Assembly: GCA_947627005.1 (NCBI GenBank)
Contig: CANQUJ010000001.1
Coordinates: 1-64,000, forward strand
From: an uncultured Clostridia bacterium
Lineage (GTDB): Bacteria > Bacillota > Clostridia > Oscillospirales > Ruminococcaceae
Length of the DNA stretch: 64,000 bases
Reading direction: 5' to 3'
Below are positions 10,033 to 30,575 of this stretch, one piece after another. Positions within the stretch are counted from its first letter, which is position 1. Every line of letters starts with the position of its first letter. Made by a program: the position numbers and the translations under genes. The notes beneath the pieces are model-generated. The model worked only from the letters and a program-made list of their open reading frames with translations. It was not told the origin of the DNA and ran no database searches.

Positions 10033-10692
10033 TTGAATCTTAAATCTTTTTTTGACCGCGTCGTCGAAGACGTAGACTCGGTTCGCGAGCGCGACCCGGC
10101 GGCGAAGTCCCGACTCGAGGTTTTGCTGACCTATTCCGGCGTTCACGCCGTTTTGATCTATCGCCTCGCGCACAAGCTGTATGTAAACCAATTTAAACTC
10201 ACCGCACGCGCGCTCTCGCAGCTCGGAAGACTTCTCACCGGGATCGAGATCCATCCCGCCGCGAAGATCGGCAGGGGGCTGTTTATAGACCACGGCGCGG
10301 GGGTGGTCATCGGCGAAACCGCCGAGATCGGCGACAACTGTCTTTTGTATCAAGGGGCGACCCTCGGAGGAACCGGCAAGGGCAAGGGCAAGCGCCACCC
10401 GACCCTCGGCAACAACGTGATGGTCGGCTGCGGGGCGAAGGTTTTAGGACCGTTTAAAGTCGGCGACAACGCAAAGATCGCCGCAAACGCCGTAGTGCTC
10501 GAGGCTGTGCCCGCAAACGCGACCGCAGTCGGCGTTCCCGCAAGGGTGGTAAGGCGAAACGGCGTTCGGGTCAACGACCTCGACCAGGTCCATATCCCCG
10601 ACCCCGTATCGCAGGAGCTTTGCCGCCAGCGCGCAAAGATAGAAGAGCTTGAGCGCGAAATTGAAACGCTTAAAAATCAAAAGAAGGACTGA
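10033..10692 (+). CDS. cysE: Serine O-acetyltransferase
   Basis: Left-handed beta-helix acetyltransferase ([60 protein letters not shown]). Likely TTG start at 10033 after AAGAGGAATTC. Confidence 0.93.
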
Positions 10693-20854: not shown

Positions 20855-20892
20855 AAGGGCGGGCTTCGCTAAGAGGTCCGCCCTTTTTCTTT
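20855..20892. terminator. Bidirectional terminator between convergent dac gene and glucan-synthase-like gene
   Basis: AAAGGGCGGGC...GTCCGCCCTTTTTC stem-loop with T-tract. Confidence 0.7.
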
Positions 20893-23800
20893 AAGTCTTG
20901 CCTTTATCGGCGCGGAGGGGCTTAAAGTCGTCATTCCGCTTTCGGTCTTTGCGCCGCAAAGGTCTTCGCGAAGGGCTTTAAGATACCACGCCGCCGAGCC
21001 GGTGTATATCGACCATCCGCCCCGGCCGAGGCAGTTTTTGTTTGAATAGACGTCGCCGCAAAGATAGTAGGGCTCGGTCTTGTATTTTAAATATCCGCCG
21101 TCTTTAGAGCGGTTTATCGGGTTGAGCGCCGCAAGGATCCCCTCGCCCTCGTTTATAAGCCCCGCCTTGATGCAAGCCGAGCCGAGCCACACCGCGCCGT
21201 GGGTGTATTGCCCGCCGTTTTCTCTTATCCCCTCGGGGTAGTTTCTTATATACCCCGGGTTCGGCTCGGAATCGTCGGAAAAGGGCGGAGCGAACAGCTT
21301 TATCACCCCGCGCTTAAGGTCGGCGAGGGCTTCGCAGGCGGATTCGAGGGCCTGTTTCGTAAAGCCGTCTTCGCCGAGGCCGGCAAATTCGGCGAAGGAC
21401 TGCGAAATCGAGTCGATCTTACATTCCTTCGATTTTATCGACCCCAGCTTCGAGCCGTCGTCGAAATACCCCCTAAGATACCACTTAGGGTCGCGGCCGA
21501 AGCTTTCGACCGACTCTTTTAGCGCCGCCGCATATTCTTTCAGCGAGGCGGAATATTCGCGGTCGCCGCGCGATTCGGCGAGCTTTGAAAACCTATTTAA
21601 AACGATGATATAAAATTCAGTCAGCCAGACGGATTCGCCCTCGCCGTTTTTCCCGACGTTTCCGAAGCCGTCGTTCCAGTCGCCCGAGCCTATGAGCATA
21701 AGCCCGTGGGCGCCGGTCTTTCCGGCCCGAAAGTCTATCGCCCGGCGGCAGTGTTGATAAACCGCTTCGCGGCGGGCGGTTCTGAATACCTCGCCGTAGC
21801 GCTCGGTTTGACTGTCCGAAAGCTCGAGGCCGTCGCAATAGGCGGTTTCAAGCGAGAGCAGCCCGAAATCGCCGGTCTTTTCGACATATTCGCAGGCCGC
21901 GAACGGAAGCCAAAGCGCGTCGTCGGAGATTTTGGTTCTTATTCCCCGCGTTTTGCGCCCCGGCATTATATGCCACCAGTGCAAAACGTCGCCCTTAAAG
22001 AATTGCGCGCAGCAGCAGCGGAGTATCTGCGTTTTAAGGGCGGAGGGGTTTTCGTCGACTATTCCGAGGGCGTCCTGAAGCTGGTCTCTGAATCCGTAGG
22101 CGCCGGAGCACTGGTAAAACCCGGTCCTCGCGTAGATCCTTGCGTGAAGCGCCTGATACCGCAGCCAAACGTTCATCATAAGGTCGGTCGGGCGGTCGTC
22201 GGTTACGATCTCGAGCTTATTCTCGCGGGCGTCGGTCTGTTTGACGAAAAGCCCCGGCATGGCCTCGGCGGCTTTTTCGGAGAGGCCGTATGAGATATAA
22301 AAGCAGACCCTTTTTCTTCCGGCAGACCTAACAGAGACTATCCCCGCCAAGGTTTCGGAGGGCTCGATTTTATCGCTCTTTTCGCCGGATAAAAACGCCT
22401 CGCGGTTTGTCGAGACAGAGCAGGGCTCGGAGCAGGAGATAAACATAAACCCCGCCGTCTCGGAGGCGTAGGAGGCCAGCAAAAGGCCGTTTTCGCGCTT
22501 TTTTGGGATTATCGCCGCGCAAGAGCGCCTGTCGGGGCCCATACATGGCTCGGTATAGAGCGAAAGCGTTCCCTCGGCCTTTGAAATCAGCTCGACGGTT
22601 ATTCTTTTGCAAAGCCCCTTTTCCGAGACTTCCACCGCGGTTTTGGCCTCGTAACCGTCGCCCTTTGAAAAATATTCCGCCTTATAGGGCGAAAAGACCG
22701 CCGCAGCGCCCCTTATAACGTCGTAAAGCTTGCCGCCCATCTCAAGTATAAGCCTTTCGCCGAGGTTGTCCCGCGCGGGGTCGTTGTCCCAGGGGGTAAG
22801 GCGGTTTTCCTGCGAATTAAAAGCGTAGGTGAACCCGAGCGACCCTTCGGAGACGAGAGTTCCGAAAACGCGGTTTGAAAGGATATGGCACCAGGGGAGC
22901 GGCGGCTTTTCGTTTATGACGTAGCTTTCGCCGAAAAACCCGCCGCAGGCGACCGGGTAATCCGTTTTCTGCAAAATCGGAGAAGAGGGGAGTATCTCTC
23001 TGAATTTTTTGGGCTTTATCTCGCTTTGAGGCGGGATTATTTCGCCCTCGCAGATTCGGCAGGTCGAAGTGCAGACGAGCTCGAACAGCCCCTCGCGCGA
23101 TCTCGAAAGGTCTAAGGGCAGGATCCCGCCGCTTGAATAGACCGAGCCTTCAAGCCCGGCCTCTCTTGCCGCCGAGATCAGCGCGGAATAGTGTTCGCGC
23201 TCGTAGCGGCCCTTGTCGTCGAACGCGAAGACGAGCTGAAAATCCACCCCGCAAAGCCGCAAAAGCTTATAAGCCCCAAGATATGCCGAAAGCTTCTGCG
23301 AGTCGTTGTTTCCGTTAAGGGCGACCGAAACGAGCGGAAGCTCGGTGGAAATCGAGAGCTCCCAAAGGGCGCTTAGCGGAAGCCGGTTGCTTTCTATCGC
23401 CCTTTTTCGGCGCTCCGGCATTTTTGTTTCAAAGAGTATATCCGGCAAAAGCGACGAGGCCACCCGCCCGGCGGCGGTGTCGAGCCGTGGGGATCGGCAG
23501 AGCTTCGGCTTTTTTCGCCTTATCTCCGAAACGCGGTTTATAAGTTCGTCGTAAGAGTCGGCGCAGAGGATAAACATCGTAAGCTCGGCCTCGGATTTAG
23601 GCGGCAGGGTTATCTGCGCGGAAATAAAGATACAAGGGTCGGGCTCGGAAATAAGGCTCGGGGGAATATCCGCGAAGCCGGTTTTAAGGCCGTATAGGCC
23701 GGCAGGGCGGCTTAAAACCTCGCCCCTGTCGAAGCTTACGGTCTGTTTTATATCTTCGATAAACCCTACGCCGATATAGATTTTTTTATCTTCGCCGACC

Positions 23801-26800
23801 CTCGAGGCGACGGCTATATCCCAGCGCGGGTCGCGCTCGAATCTTAAAAACAGCTTTGAAAAGGCGGGGTGCGCCCTTTCGGCGGCGTCGTTTTGCAACG
23901 AGGGCTCGATATAGCTTATTATCGAGGAGGGAAGAGGGGAGGCGGTCTCGTTTTTAAGGGCGAAGGTCCTAAGCTCGCAGGGGTATTCGGAGTGAAGGCT
24001 TATTTTCATCCCGGAAGAGAGCTTTTTCGTGCAGCGGTAATATGCCGCAAAATCCTCTCCGAACTCTGCGGTAAGGTCGTCGGCGCCCTCGGGCGGAAGC
24101 CCGAACATAAGCGCCTCGCCGCCGTCGCTTATAAAACAGCGGACGCCCTTGGGGCGAAAGATCGGGTCGCGGGTTTTAAGATATACGTTTTTCGAGCGAT
24201 AAAGCGCCGCGCAGCAGCCGTTGTCGGCGGCGGCAAGGGTAAGCTCGCCGTTGCACAAAAGCTTTACCCGAGGGGAGATAAGGTCGAAGGTATCGAAGCT
24301 TTCGGTCTCGATACGGCGGGGCTCCGGCTCGGAGATCTTCGGGCGGATGAGGTTGTTTTCAAACACCGCAGTTCCGAGGTGGAACCGCTCGTCCAAAAGT
24401 TCGAGCGCGCCCTTTGCCCGCAGATCGCGCATAAACCGCCTTTGCATGATTCCGTTAGAAAGAATGTTGTCGCATGAGACTATGCTCATTCCGACGTGGT
24501 GGGCCATATAGCTTCGCACAGGCTGCGGCTTTTCGGAATCGGGCGCGGTAAAATCGAGGGCTTCGTATAGCCCGAAGCTGCCGTACATGCCGTAATCTTT
24601 GAGCTTTCTAAGGTTTTCGACCCCTTCGCCGCCCGAATAGCAGAGCGAGATAAAGGTAGAATACGGCGAAACGACGTAGTCCCGCTCGAGCCCGCGCCTT
24701 ATCCCGGTGTTCGGAACTCCGTGCGCCATATAGCGATAGTTAAGGGCGCTGTCGAAGCTGTAAAAGCCGCTCTCGGATATCCCGTAGGGGCGGTTGAGGC
24801 TTTTCGCGTAGCGCTGCTGAACGCCGAGGGCGTATTTTAGGCTTTCGGCAAAAAGCGAGCCCTCGGGGCTTTTTAAGAATATCTCCGGCATGAAATATTC
24901 AAACATCGTGCCGGAATACGAGGCCGCGCCGCCGAAAAAGCCGGAGCTTAGCATCGCGCGGGAGAGCCTTTGCCAGTGGCTTTTGGGGACCTGCCGCGAG
25001 GCGATCGCCCAAAACGAGGTCAGCCGCGCCTCGCTCATAAGGCAGTCGTAGCAGGCCCTGCCGCGCTCGCCGGTCTCGGGGTCTATCCCGATCGCCATAA
25101 GCCCGCGAACCGGGTCGTAGAACGCCGAGAGGTCGGTCGAGTCGATAAGGCTTTCAAGCCTTTTTATCAAAGAAGTTACCCTTTGGGCCGGCTCGAACTC
25201 TTTAAGCCCCTCTTTAAGCGCGACGAGGCAGCAGACGAAATTTCCGCTGTCGACGCTTGAGACGAACGGCCTCGGGCAGATTTTAAGCGTTTCGGTGTCA
25301 TACCAGTTATACAGGTTGCCTTTGTATTTTTCGAGCCGCTCGACCGTCGCGACGGTTCTTTCTATCCGCTCGACCGCGGCGGCGCGGCTTATAAGTTTGC
25401 GGTCGCAGGCGGCGAGGACCGAAAGAAGATACAGCCCGATGTTTGTCGGCGAGGTTCGGCGGGCGGTTCGGTATACCGGCGCGAGCTGGATATTGTCGGG
25501 CGGAAGATAGTTGTCCGGCCGGCCGACCGCGCTTTCAAAGAACCCCCACATATCCGCAGTCTGTTTTATAAGCTCGCGGCTGTCGCGATATTTAAGCCTC
25601 GGTTCCAAAGACTCCGACTTTTCGCAGTCGAAGACCAAAACCGCCGGGGCGACAGAAAAAATCGCGCCCCAAAGCCTTATGAAATAATCGGGAGAGAACA
25701 AAAGCGAAAGGCTTAAAAGCTCGGGGAGGATATAAAACCCGAGCGGGCTTTGCTCGGCTTTGTCCGAGGCTTCGGAGGTCGTCCAGTCGAGAAGCCGCCT
25801 TTTGGTAATAAGCCTTATAAGAGCGGCCGCAATCGCGCGGGAGGAGACCACCGCGAGAGTCGGGAGAGTTATAACGCTGTATAGGATATATCTTAAATTC
25901 TGCGAGGCAGAGCTTATCAGCCCGGAATAAAACCGTCTGCCGAGGGCGCGGTCGTTGAGCGCCGAAAAGGCGGTCGAAAGGATCGGCGGAAGAAGCCACA
26001 TCAGCAAAGCCGAGGCGGCGACTATCGCCGAAGAGGCCGAGGCAAAGAGAAAACTTATAAAAAAGCAGAGAAAAACCGAAATCGGCGCGGCGGCGCGGCG
26101 AAGATTGTCCAAAAGCTTCAATTTTGAAAGGATACCGTATTTTTTCGAGAAAATTTCGGGGATATTCTGAAAGTCGCCGCGGATCCAGCGGTCGAGGCGG
26201 CGATAATAGCTCTGCGGGCTTGAGGGAAACCCCTCGGTAAAACAGATATCTCCGGCGTAGGCGGTCTTCATAAGCTCGCCCTCTAAAATGTCATGAGAGA
26301 GTATCCTTTCGCTGTTAAGACGGGGCGCGGTCTCTTTAAGCGCGCGGACGTTTATAAGCCCCTTCCCGCAGAAAGTCCCCGAGCCGAAAACGTCCATATA
26401 AAGGTTAGAGGCTTCTTCGTCGTAGCTCGATTTCGAGCCTATTCCGCCGAGGCTTTTTGAAAATTCCGAGCGCAGAGAATCTTTAAGCCGTGTAACTATT
26501 CTCGGCGCGACTATTCCGAAGCCCCTTACTACCCGGCCGTCTTTTATAACCGCTCTGTTCGCGGGGTGAAGGGCTATCGCCAAAAGCTCGCTTACCGAAT
26601 CCATAAGCGGAAGGGTGTCGCTGTCGACGGCGCAGAAATATTCCGTTCCGACTATCGACCCGAACGCGCCGAGAGTCGCGTAAAAATCGCCCTCGCCGCA
26701 CAGGGTGTATTCCGCAAGGTCTAAAAGCGCGCCCCGCTTTCTAAGCCTTCCCATATACTCCTGCTGGGTCTCGGAAAAGCTTCTTTTTCTTACGAAGCAG

Positions 26801-27939
26801 GAAAATTTTCCCTCGGCGGTCTCGTTGAGTTTGGTTATCGTTTCGGCGAGGCTTTCGATTATCGCGCGGTCCTCCGAGACGGTCGGGACCTGTTCGGGGG
26901 AGAGGTCTATAAGCGCGCAGACGGATATGTTTTTCGCGGGATTCAGACAGTGAAGCCTTAAAAGCCGGTCGTAAAGCGAGGCGGCGTCCTCCGGGTCGAA
27001 GGCGACCGAAGAGAGGACTATCGCGGTTTTGGCGGACCGAACCTCTGGCGATGAAACGCTTAGCCGCATAAGCCTTTCTGCGCGGCGATTGCGGGTCAGA
27101 ACAAAGTCGCTTAGCGGGCGCAGGGCCTCGATCGCCGGAAGAAACAAAAGCGCCGCCGCAAGAGGAATATCCGCCCAAAAGGCGATAGAGACGGATATAA
27201 TCGCCGCAAAAACCGCCAGCCCCGCCGCGGCAAGGGCAGCGGAGCCCTCTTTAAGCCGCTTTTTCTTAAAAACGGCGAGGCTTTCGACGTCGATATCCGA
27301 ACCCGCGTATTTTTCGATAAGCTCGTCGCAGAGCTTGAGCTCGTCGAGCCCGAATTTAAAGGAGGTTTTATATATCGCCTCGCGGTATAAAAGCCGGGTC
27401 TTCGGATCGCTTTTTCGATATGCGCCGTCGGCCGAAAGCTTTATCGCGACGGGGTTTAAAACGTCGTTGATCCTGTCCGAATCTATGCTCGAAAGGTCGC
27501 TTAAAAGGGTCATATAGCGGATAAGCGAAAGGTCGCGGCGCTCTAAACGGTCGCAGATCTTCTCGACGAGGGAGTATATAAGCGAGAATTTTAGGTATTC
27601 GAGCTCGCAGCCGAATATTCTTCGCGAAGCGCAGACCCCGCGAAGAATGAGGATAATTTCGTCGGTATCGGGGAAGGCTTCTTTCGAGGCGGAAATGATC
27701 GCCTCGGCAAGCTCGAACCCGCCGTTGAAATATATGAGCTTTTCGGGGAAATCCCCGGCCTTTGAGCCTGCGGCGCTTAAAATCGTGTGGAAATTGTCCG
27801 CAAAAAATACGAGAGGCTCGCTTGAAACGCCGGACGCGCAGAGCTCGGAATAGGTTTTTTTAAGGGCTCGAACTCGTTTCGAGGTTCTTTTTGAGAGGCT
27901 GTTAAGGCTTACAAATCCGCCGGCGGCGCCGTTTTTCAT
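20869..27939 (-). CDS. NdvB/Cgs-like giant protein: GT84-type glycosyltransferase, glycoamylase-like and GH94-type phosphorylase domains (cyclic beta-1,2-glucan synthase-like)
   Basis: 2356 aa; GT84-like FCAVDSDTLP...ILEGELMKTAYAGDICFTEGFPSSPQSYYRRLDRWIRGD; glycoamylase-like SGFYSFDSALNYRYMAHGVPNTGIRRGLERDYVVSPYST; GH94-like FYQCSGAYGFRDQLQDALG, GSGDWNDGFGNVG, ENGGQYTHGAVWLGSA; several TM helices. Confidence 0.88.
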   Translation of the reverse strand: MKNGAAGGFVSLNSLSKRTSKRVRALKKTYSELCASGVSSEPLVFFADNFHTILSAAGSKAGDFPEKLIYFNGGFELAEAIISASKEAFPDTDEIILILRGVCASRRIFGCELEYLKFSLIYSLVEKICDRLERRDLSLIRYMTLLSDLSSIDSDRINDVLNPVAIKLSADGAYRKSDPKTRLLYREAIYKTSFKFGLDELKLCDELIEKYAGSDIDVESLAVFKKKRLKEGSAALAAAGLAVFAAIISVSIAFWADIPLAAALLFLPAIEALRPLSDFVLTRNRRAERLMRLSVSSPEVRSAKTAIVLSSVAFDPEDAASLYDRLLRLHCLNPAKNISVCALIDLSPEQVPTVSEDRAIIESLAETITKLNETAEGKFSCFVRKRSFSETQQEYMGRLRKRGALLDLAEYTLCGEGDFYATLGAFGSIVGTEYFCAVDSDTLPLMDSVSELLAIALHPANRAVIKDGRVVRGFGIVAPRIVTRLKDSLRSEFSKSLGGIGSKSSYDEEASNLYMDVFGSGTFCGKGLINVRALKETAPRLNSERILSHDILEGELMKTAYAGDICFTEGFPSSPQSYYRRLDRWIRGDFQNIPEIFSKKYGILSKLKLLDNLRRAAAPISVFLCFFISFLFASASSAIVAASALLMWLLPPILSTAFSALNDRALGRRFYSGLISSASQNLRYILYSVITLPTLAVVSSRAIAAALIRLITKRRLLDWTTSEASDKAEQSPLGFYILPELLSLSLLFSPDYFIRLWGAIFSVAPAVLVFDCEKSESLEPRLKYRDSRELIKQTADMWGFFESAVGRPDNYLPPDNIQLAPVYRTARRTSPTNIGLYLLSVLAACDRKLISRAAAVERIERTVATVERLEKYKGNLYNWYDTETLKICPRPFVSSVDSGNFVCCLVALKEGLKEFEPAQRVTSLIKRLESLIDSTDLSAFYDPVRGLMAIGIDPETGERGRACYDCLMSEARLTSFWAIASRQVPKSHWQRLSRAMLSSGFFGGAASYSGTMFEYFMPEIFLKSPEGSLFAESLKYALGVQQRYAKSLNRPYGISESGFYSFDSALNYRYMAHGVPNTGIRRGLERDYVVSPYSTFISLCYSGGEGVENLRKLKDYGMYGSFGLYEALDFTAPDSEKPQPVRSYMAHHVGMSIVSCDNILSNGIMQRRFMRDLRAKGALELLDERFHLGTAVFENNLIRPKISEPEPRRIETESFDTFDLISPRVKLLCNGELTLAAADNGCCAALYRSKNVYLKTRDPIFRPKGVRCFISDGGEALMFGLPPEGADDLTAEFGEDFAAYYRCTKKLSSGMKISLHSEYPCELRTFALKNETASPLPSSIISYIEPSLQNDAAERAHPAFSKLFLRFERDPRWDIAVASRVGEDKKIYIGVGFIEDIKQTVSFDRGEVLSRPAGLYGLKTGFADIPPSLISEPDPCIFISAQITLPPKSEAELTMFILCADSYDELINRVSEIRRKKPKLCRSPRLDTAAGRVASSLLPDILFETKMPERRKRAIESNRLPLSALWELSISTELPLVSVALNGNNDSQKLSAYLGAYKLLRLCGVDFQLVFAFDDKGRYEREHYSALISAAREAGLEGSVYSSGGILPLDLSRSREGLFELVCTSTCRICEGEIIPPQSEIKPKKFREILPSSPILQKTDYPVACGGFFGESYVINEKPPLPWCHILSNRVFGTLVSEGSLGFTYAFNSQENRLTPWDNDPARDNLGERLILEMGGKLYDVIRGAAAVFSPYKAEYFSKGDGYEAKTAVEVSEKGLCKRITVELISKAEGTLSLYTEPCMGPDRRSCAAIIPKKRENGLLLASYASETAGFMFISCSEPCSVSTNREAFLSGEKSDKIEPSETLAGIVSVRSAGRKRVCFYISYGLSEKAAEAMPGLFVKQTDARENKLEIVTDDRPTDLMMNVWLRYQALHARIYARTGFYQCSGAYGFRDQLQDALGIVDENPSALKTQILRCCCAQFFKGDVLHWWHIMPGRKTRGIRTKISDDALWLPFAACEYVEKTGDFGLLSLETAYCDGLELSDSQTERYGEVFRTARREAVYQHCRRAIDFRAGKTGAHGLMLIGSGDWNDGFGNVGKNGEGESVWLTEFYIIVLNRFSKLAESRGDREYSASLKEYAAALKESVESFGRDPKWYLRGYFDDGSKLGSIKSKECKIDSISQSFAEFAGLGEDGFTKQALESACEALADLKRGVIKLFAPPFSDDSEPNPGYIRNYPEGIRENGGQYTHGAVWLGSACIKAGLINEGEGILAALNPINRSKDGGYLKYKTEPYYLCGDVYSNKNCLGRGGWSIYTGSAAWYLKALREDLCGAKTESGMTTLSPSAPIKARLKEKGRTS

Positions 27940-29482: not shown

Positions 29483-29722
29483 TTATTTCTTTTTTCCGAA
29501 GAGATTTTTAAGCCCGCCGAGCTTTGCGCCGAGGTCGTCGGCCCCGAGCTTGGCTTTGATGCCGTCTACGACCTTTTCGAGCTGGTCGTCGGGAAGGTCA
29601 ACCCCCGCGAGTTCTTCGACGGTTTTGACTGGTTCTTTTTTAAACTGTTCGAGCAGTTTGTCGTCGGATTTAATCTTGCCGACTACTTCTTCTACTTTTT
29701 CCTTAATTTCTCCGATGTCCAT
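29483..29722 (-). CDS. Small conserved-looking protein (about 79 aa), leader-peptide/Nif11-like composition
   Basis: MDIGEIKEKVEEVVGKIKSDDKLLEQFKKEPVKTVEELAGVDLPDDQLEKVVDGIKAKLGADDLGAKLGGLKNLFGKKK; strong SD (AGGAGG on minus) before ATG at 29722. Confidence 0.75.
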   Translation of the reverse strand: MDIGEIKEKVEEVVGKIKSDDKLLEQFKKEPVKTVEELAGVDLPDDQLEKVVDGIKAKLGADDLGAKLGGLKNLFGKKK

Positions 29723-29782
29723 AACAATAACCTCCTGTGGACTTGATAAGGATATTATAATACTACTGCGGGAAAAAGTCAA

Positions 29783-29821
29783 ATTAGAAATCAGAGGTCA
29801 GAAGTCGGAAATCGGAGGTCA
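29783..29821. repeat. Heptad-repeat tract, partial copy
   Basis: TAGAAAT-CAGAGGT-CAGAAGT-CGGAAAT-CGGAGGT. Confidence 0.7.
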
Positions 29822-29828
29822 AAATTTA

Positions 29829-30362
29829 AAGTTTTCGATCCAACCTTTTTCAAAAGGTTGGCGAGATTCCAAAGGCGAGAAGCCTTTGGTCGCAGCCCGC
29901 AGGCTGCGAAAGCCCCCAAACCGAAGGCGCTCCGAATTGGGTGAATTGAAAAAACAGTCCTGTGGACTGTTTTTTCAAGAGGGAAAGCCCTGCAAGAGAG
30001 GGCTTTCCCTTTATATTCGCGGCTGCGAGAGCAGTCGCGCACCTCAACGTTGTGTTTTCGACTCTTTAACCCGCAGCTCCGACAGGAGCTGCAAGCCTTA
30101 TAATTTTCTCGCCTGCGCTCAAAATCGGGGAGCCCCCGACGAGCAAGCGCCTCGACCGCAGGGGACCCCTTGATAGGGTCCCCTGCGCCCGAACAGTCCA
30201 CCGGACTGTTCGGGCTACCCTCCTGATCTTTTTTCGCTTTTTAAAAAGAGCACGCTCGGCCGCGTGCTCTTTTTTGGGGCTTTCGCGCTCTGCGGAGCGC
30301 GACGAGGGCTTCTCGCCCTCGACCCCGCAAGCCTTTTGAAAAAGGCTTGAGCGAAAACTTTT
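29829..30362. repeat. Hairpin array bounded by two inverted copies of a three-hairpin element
   Basis: Copy 1 (+, 29829-29917) and copy 2 (-, 30276-30362) share AAGTTTTCGnTC...CTTTTTCAAAAG...GGCGAGAAGCC...CCGCA..GCGAAAGCCCC with different but self-complementary stems. Hairpins between them include CGCAGGGGACCC-CTTGATA-GGGTCCCCTGCG and CCCGAACAGTCC-ACC-GGACTGTTCGGG. Confidence 0.8.
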
Positions 30363-30551: not shown

Positions 30552-30575
30552 TCGCTCGAAAGGGGGGTGGATCTT

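Follow-up and report, generated by a model that had tools for sequence, protein, structure and literature searches.

The described elements closest to the repeat reported here come from several settings. BOX elements of Streptococcus pneumoniae (PMC3049150), likened here by their description, are composite, modular and intergenic, consist of stem-loops in a variable number of modules, and need no protein of their own. REP, BIME and REPIN sequences (PMC3116915, PMC3733652, PMC8266576) are intergenic palindromes that occur as inverted pairs and show complementary changes in their stems; the REP survey of PMC3733652 mentions neither Firmicutes nor Clostridia. Prokaryotic MITEs (PMC10969869) are short and non-coding, have inverted ends and are present in one species and absent from another. 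Short, intergenic, nested palindromes whose stems vary around fixed loops are found in Volvox organelles (PMC2670323) and, as double-hairpin elements, in fungal mitochondria. In hairpins, finally, a template-switch mutation alters the two arms in a single step, so that the pairing stays perfect (PMC8794818). In their structure and placement these repeats resemble an element that we describe from an uncultured Clostridia bacterium, and the template-switch mechanism is a candidate for it.

The element lies at 29828-30361 of the window (the whole stretch of 64,000 nt that was analysed), flanked by a small ORF on the minus strand (29483-29782) and by mraZ, which begins at 30567. It also sits between two predicted promoters, both of which point outward, and is outside both. 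Further off, the window contains a 2356-aa ORF (20869-27939, minus strand) that by eye resembles a cyclic glucan synthase. A preliminary description had reported two inverted copies of a three-hairpin unit, and both are indeed present, at 29828-29916 (plus strand) and 30276-30361 (minus strand). If the hairpins are called A, B and C, their stems differ between copies 1 and 2 but each is fully paired, as had been claimed (CCAACC/GGTTGG vs CAAGCC/GGCTTG in A, CCAAAGGC/GCCTTTGG vs CGAGGGC/GCCCTCG in B, CGCAGCC/GGCTGCG vs CGCGCTC/GAGCGCG in C), while both copies have the same loops, TTTTTCAAAA, GAGAA and CGCA. A CAGTCC/GGACTG hairpin occurs twice between them (29946-29978 and 30187-30215), and other hairpins appear in the repeat listing. 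The region has no long ORF, in agreement with its description as non-protein. Its parts are as follows:

29828-30361, no strand assigned: whole two-sided element, class I half on the left and inverted class II half on the right
29828-29861, plus strand: head AAAGTTTTCG and hairpin A (CCAACC / loop TTTTTCAAAA / GGTTGG)
29869-29889, plus strand: hairpin B (CCAAAGGC-GAGAA-GCCTTTGG form)
29891-29908, plus strand: hairpin C (CGCAGCC-CGCA-GGCTGCG)
29917-29945, plus strand: class I linker D (CAAACCGAAGGCGCTCCGAATTGGGTGAA)
29946-29978, plus strand: hairpin E (TTGAAAAAACAGTCC / GGACTGTTTTTTCAA)
29980-30010, plus strand: hairpin F (AGGGAAAGCCCT / AGGGCTTTCCCT)
30018-30039, plus strand: hairpin G1 (CGCGGCTGCGAGAGCAGTCGCG)
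30073-30092, plus strand: hairpin G2 (GCAGCTCCGACAGGAGCTGC)
30152-30192, minus strand: class II hairpin F' (GCAGGGGACCC / GGGTCCCCTGC)
30187-30215, minus strand: class II hairpin E' (GCCCGAACAGTCC / GGACTGTTCGGGC), overlapping the outer edge of F'
30243-30274, minus strand: class II extra hairpin in linker D' (AAAAAGAGCACGC / GCGTGCTCTTTTT)
30284-30301, minus strand: hairpin C' (CGCGCTC-CGCA-GAGCGCG)
30303-30321, minus strand: hairpin B' (CGAGGGC-GAGAA-GCCCTCG form)
30328-30361, minus strand: hairpin A' and inverted head (CAAGCC / GGCTTG ... CGAAAACTTT)

The same anatomy recurs throughout the family. The order in each half is the head AAAGTTTTCG, hairpins A, B and C, a linker, hairpins E and F and often one to three G hairpins, and the linker distinguishes two classes of halves, class I with GGTGAAT and class II with CAGGAGGGG. 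Two-sided copies combine a class I and a class II half (10 out of 10 scored), are mostly 470-860 nt long and carry terminal inverted repeats, i.e. their inverted A-B-C heads; their internal ORFs are short and none is a real one. One-sided copies, in which one inverted head is missing, occur for each class. In other species hairpin C is sometimes absent, or the stems are different, and the order of the hairpins is unchanged.

Several individual copies have peculiarities of their own. L011 (G000:C2:115500-115551, where G000 is the genome of origin) is a single near-perfect palindrome that looks like two fused heads and is possibly the deletion scar of a two-sided copy. A solo hairpin A stands 45 nt before a full head, in direct orientation, in L027, L028 and L037, and truncated heads occupy the same place in L019, L034, L035 and L040; insertion may favour the point where such solo and truncated heads stand. 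Insertion of a second palindromic repeat (TGCAAGCCGGTTTTGTAGCCAATCGG...) before hairpin E is seen in L024, L032 (G000:C16, around 10200-10300) and L033, and that of a third repeat (TGCCGCGAAAGTCGGGCAAAGGCGAAGCC...CGTCGTTTGACC) at hairpin F in L026, L034, L014 and L024. Degenerate 7-8-mers in runs (AGAAGTCAGAGGTC / TTAGAAGTGAGA) adjoin many copies (window 29783-29825, flanks of L015, L016, L022, L031, L084 and L136) and in other species are also seen within some linkers. We also asked if the end modules of one copy avoid identical B hairpins, and the effect was not significant (1 out of 10, p 0.06-0.12).

The preliminary description had anticipated further copies, and the genome of origin (2.07 Mb in 48 contigs) contains 116 pieces matching the element in about 35 places, with 42 matches to the 93-base A-B-C module. 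Within the genus the element is clearly present in 13 out of 30 species searched (G003, G004, G005, G007, G010, G011, G015-G018, G020, G022 and G028); two of the remaining species have one marginal match each and the rest have none. It is also found in two other genera of the same family, and the exact head pattern occurs in more than 109 stretches from rabbit, ruminant and chicken gut Clostridia, Ruminococcus and relatives. The head pattern had no match in IMG/VR, the element had none in the plasmids searched, and the phages searched gave one weak 88-base match. No description of this repeat family was found in the open-access literature. We take the element to belong to a widespread and so far undescribed family of modular palindromic repeats, probably non-autonomous and mobile, which appears to be a common component of the genomes of uncultured gut Clostridia.

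The covariation noted between the two window copies proved to be real when 70 distinct modules were compared. Pairing extends to 98.4% of the cells in helices A and C, and 167 changes are double-sided, as opposed to 83.2% and 44 in shuffled controls, and the covariation score of 0.386 lies above all 500 shuffles (0.091+-0.008) and all slid registers (at most 0.039). RNAalifold, unaided, recovers the same two hairpins, A and C. The head pattern behind the more than 109 stretches fixes several A columns, though not the four most variable, and the C search expression fixes the loop and the outer pair, so the invariance of these fixed columns is partly ascertained, whereas the pairing of the free columns is not. 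By copy number, A-B-C matches and covariation alike, the hairpin pattern is far above chance.

A conspicuous property of the modules is that the arms of a hairpin are locked together while neighbouring hairpins assort freely. Among 37 modules of the genome of origin the left arm of each hairpin is linked to its right arm, with a normalised mutual information of 1.00, 0.74 and 0.74 for A, B and C, respectively (z 25, 14 and 13). The arms of E and F are likewise locked. In contrast, the right arm of A and the left arm of B, about 7 nt apart, are unlinked (p 1.0), as are the right arm of B and the left arm of C, which are separated by 1-2 nt only (p 0.28), although with 37 modules and few types a weak linkage could escape. 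Of the 12 possible combinations of the common A, B and C types, 11 were found. The spacer after A seemed by eye to pair with the sequence after C, and was dropped as a candidate since the types are unlinked in this genome (p 0.47). Mismatched hybrids are rare (the solo A of L027, C of L022, B of L024 and B of L034). This pattern is consistent with mutation or exchange altering one arm, which then guides the correction of the other, or with the loss of mismatched products.

According to simple ORF calling all places are intergenic, and the flanking genes show no uniform orientation: 14 places are antisense, 7 sense, 6 divergent and 5 convergent. In G010, the closest genome searched, 800 kb were examined for matching places. 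Where the 223-nt copy L039 stands, G010 has 9 nt; the flanks are too diverged to read a target-site duplication, and the site bears out the earlier expectation of a bounded element with an empty site in a relative. The G010 places matching L032b and L014 have no module either. At the mraZ site the element is absent from G010 and G005, and G003 has a class II copy.

We consider it fairly probable that the element is an intergenic, non-coding and non-autonomous repeat, built as a row of palindromes and similar to MITE, REP or BOX, which spreads by means of some enzyme and whose arms are matched by template-switch copying, by exchange and by a need for the folded form. The full form would be two-sided, with class I and class II halves opposed and each headed by AAAGTTTTCG and A-B-C, and the one-sided copies would be partial forms. 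The enzyme would presumably recognise the folded heads in single-stranded DNA; the loops and flanks are fixed, perhaps for the sake of this recognition, and the stems would be free to vary provided that both arms match. Judging from the patterns above, the match may be kept by short template-switch copying from one arm to the other, a process that has been published to keep hairpins perfect (PMC8794818), and also by short exchanges between copies, with mismatched hybrids remaining rare. The concerted change of the arms is most likely due to template switching together with exchange between copies, with selection at the RNA level as the main rival.

The latter explanation holds that the element is a structured RNA, mobile or not, whose A-to-C strand is transcribed and whose compensatory changes are driven by selection on RNA folding. 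The strong covariation of the stems and the conserved loops speak for it, as do the GCAA/GAAA/GAGA-type loops that are frequent in the class I linker D (a GNRA loop in this linker was rejected as proof of RNA, as many D sequences are without a clean GNRA stem). Mismatches in all stems of 184 module windows also point this way, since on the A-to-C strand G-T exceeds A-C (38 vs 19, p 0.016), a weak sign that this strand matters as RNA or as single strand. Taken by themselves, however, the A and C helices have a G-U to A-C ratio of just 7:4, and G-U accounts for only 7 out of 1097 standard pairs (0.6%), compared with 17 out of 262 (6.5%) in 22 tRNAs taken from these same loci and counted over their acceptor and T stems. 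Because G-U is about ten times rarer than in tRNAs (Fisher p 4e-8), it is strict DNA symmetry that is kept and not classical RNA pairing. In addition, the best match of an Rfam search was far below the gathering score, the orientation to genes follows no rule and the window copy stands between outward-facing predicted promoters, so on balance we regard a structured RNA as unlikely. Somewhat less doubtful, if still tentative, is ordinary gene conversion among copies, combined with selection against unpaired hairpins and without copying from arm to arm; this overlaps the explanation that we prefer, the copying step being the sole difference. It agrees with the discrete stem types common to several copies, with the free assortment of hairpins and with the rarity of mismatched hybrids. 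It is harder to reconcile with the fact that one B loop is found with differing stem pairs (GAGAA with CCAAAG and CGAGGG; CGGCG and CAGCG likewise), a combination that requires change in both arms while the loop stays, or with the single CGCA loop that carries about 20 different, fully paired C stems across species with almost no intermediates. It could also be imagined that a dedicated process works on single-stranded DNA in its folded state and swaps whole hairpins, elements being shuffled rows of interchangeable hairpin cassettes with junctions in the 1-2 nt linkers, but we think this distinctly improbable.

Two further explanations concern known classes of repeats and signals. REP/BIME-type repeats mobilised by a TnpA-REP (RAYT) transposase would also be intergenic palindromes with fixed loops, variable stems and inverted dimers, and the genome of origin has one Y1_Tnp gene. 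However, no GTAG or CGTC tag was found at the hairpin foot (the aligned modules start with AAGTTTTCGNT before hairpin A, and none of the hairpins A, B and C has a constant tag at its foot), Y1_Tnp was undetected in the carriers G003, G005, G007 and G010, and the IS200-like Y1 locus of the genome of origin, rejected as a source, shares only chance matches of 11-13 nt with the element. We therefore see very little prospect for this explanation, which is already largely refuted. As candidate mobilisers, Y1_Tnp and RVT_1 were both discarded, as each occurs in some of the carriers only and their distribution does not track the element. Y1_Tnp has ten matches in G004; the other genomes of the genus that were searched have between none and two. 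An autonomous form with a gene between the heads was not recognised in the two-sided copies examined; L136 is a 3.4 kb pair of heads whose longest ORF has 297 aa. That the elements are cis-acting transcription terminators or mRNA stabilisers at gene ends deserves the least credence: A and T runs do flank hairpin E, but terminator-like sites are not above shuffles (3 vs 2.6), and of the 32 sites scored only 5 are convergent, with many lying upstream of genes.

The preliminary description had left two causes side by side, selection on structure or a templated generation of hairpins. Given that G-U is near-absent, that gene orientation is not fixed and that the window copy is outside both flanking promoters, a templated process at the DNA level together with a requirement for the folded form is favoured over classical RNA selection. 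Present in many hosts at dozens of copies per genome, the family is a natural experiment on paired arm change: with arms locked and neighbours assorting freely, sequence alone allows one to tell template switching from gene conversion, and either from selection on folding. The element may also influence genes, for instance mraZ, which in the window has a copy in the spacer upstream of it.

It is instructive to return to the described systems. Unlike BOX (PMC3049150), the Clostridia element has an inverted A-B-C head at both ends, two fixed halves (I and II) and variable stems with fixed loops. REP, BIME and REPIN sequences differ from it in having one hairpin rather than three to seven different ones in a fixed order, and the Clostridia element has neither the GTAG/CGTC tag nor a consistent Y1 transposase. 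In contrast to MITEs (PMC10969869), it is built internally of perfect palindromes with concerted stem change, and no parent transposon was found among the loci examined. The Volvox and fungal repeats belong to organelle DNA, while the present one is bacterial, ordered and composed of two defined halves, and template switching, described for RNA genes in PMC8794818, is here proposed for a dispersed DNA repeat. The Clostridia repeat works like a REP, MITE or BOX, without fully fitting their defining criteria.
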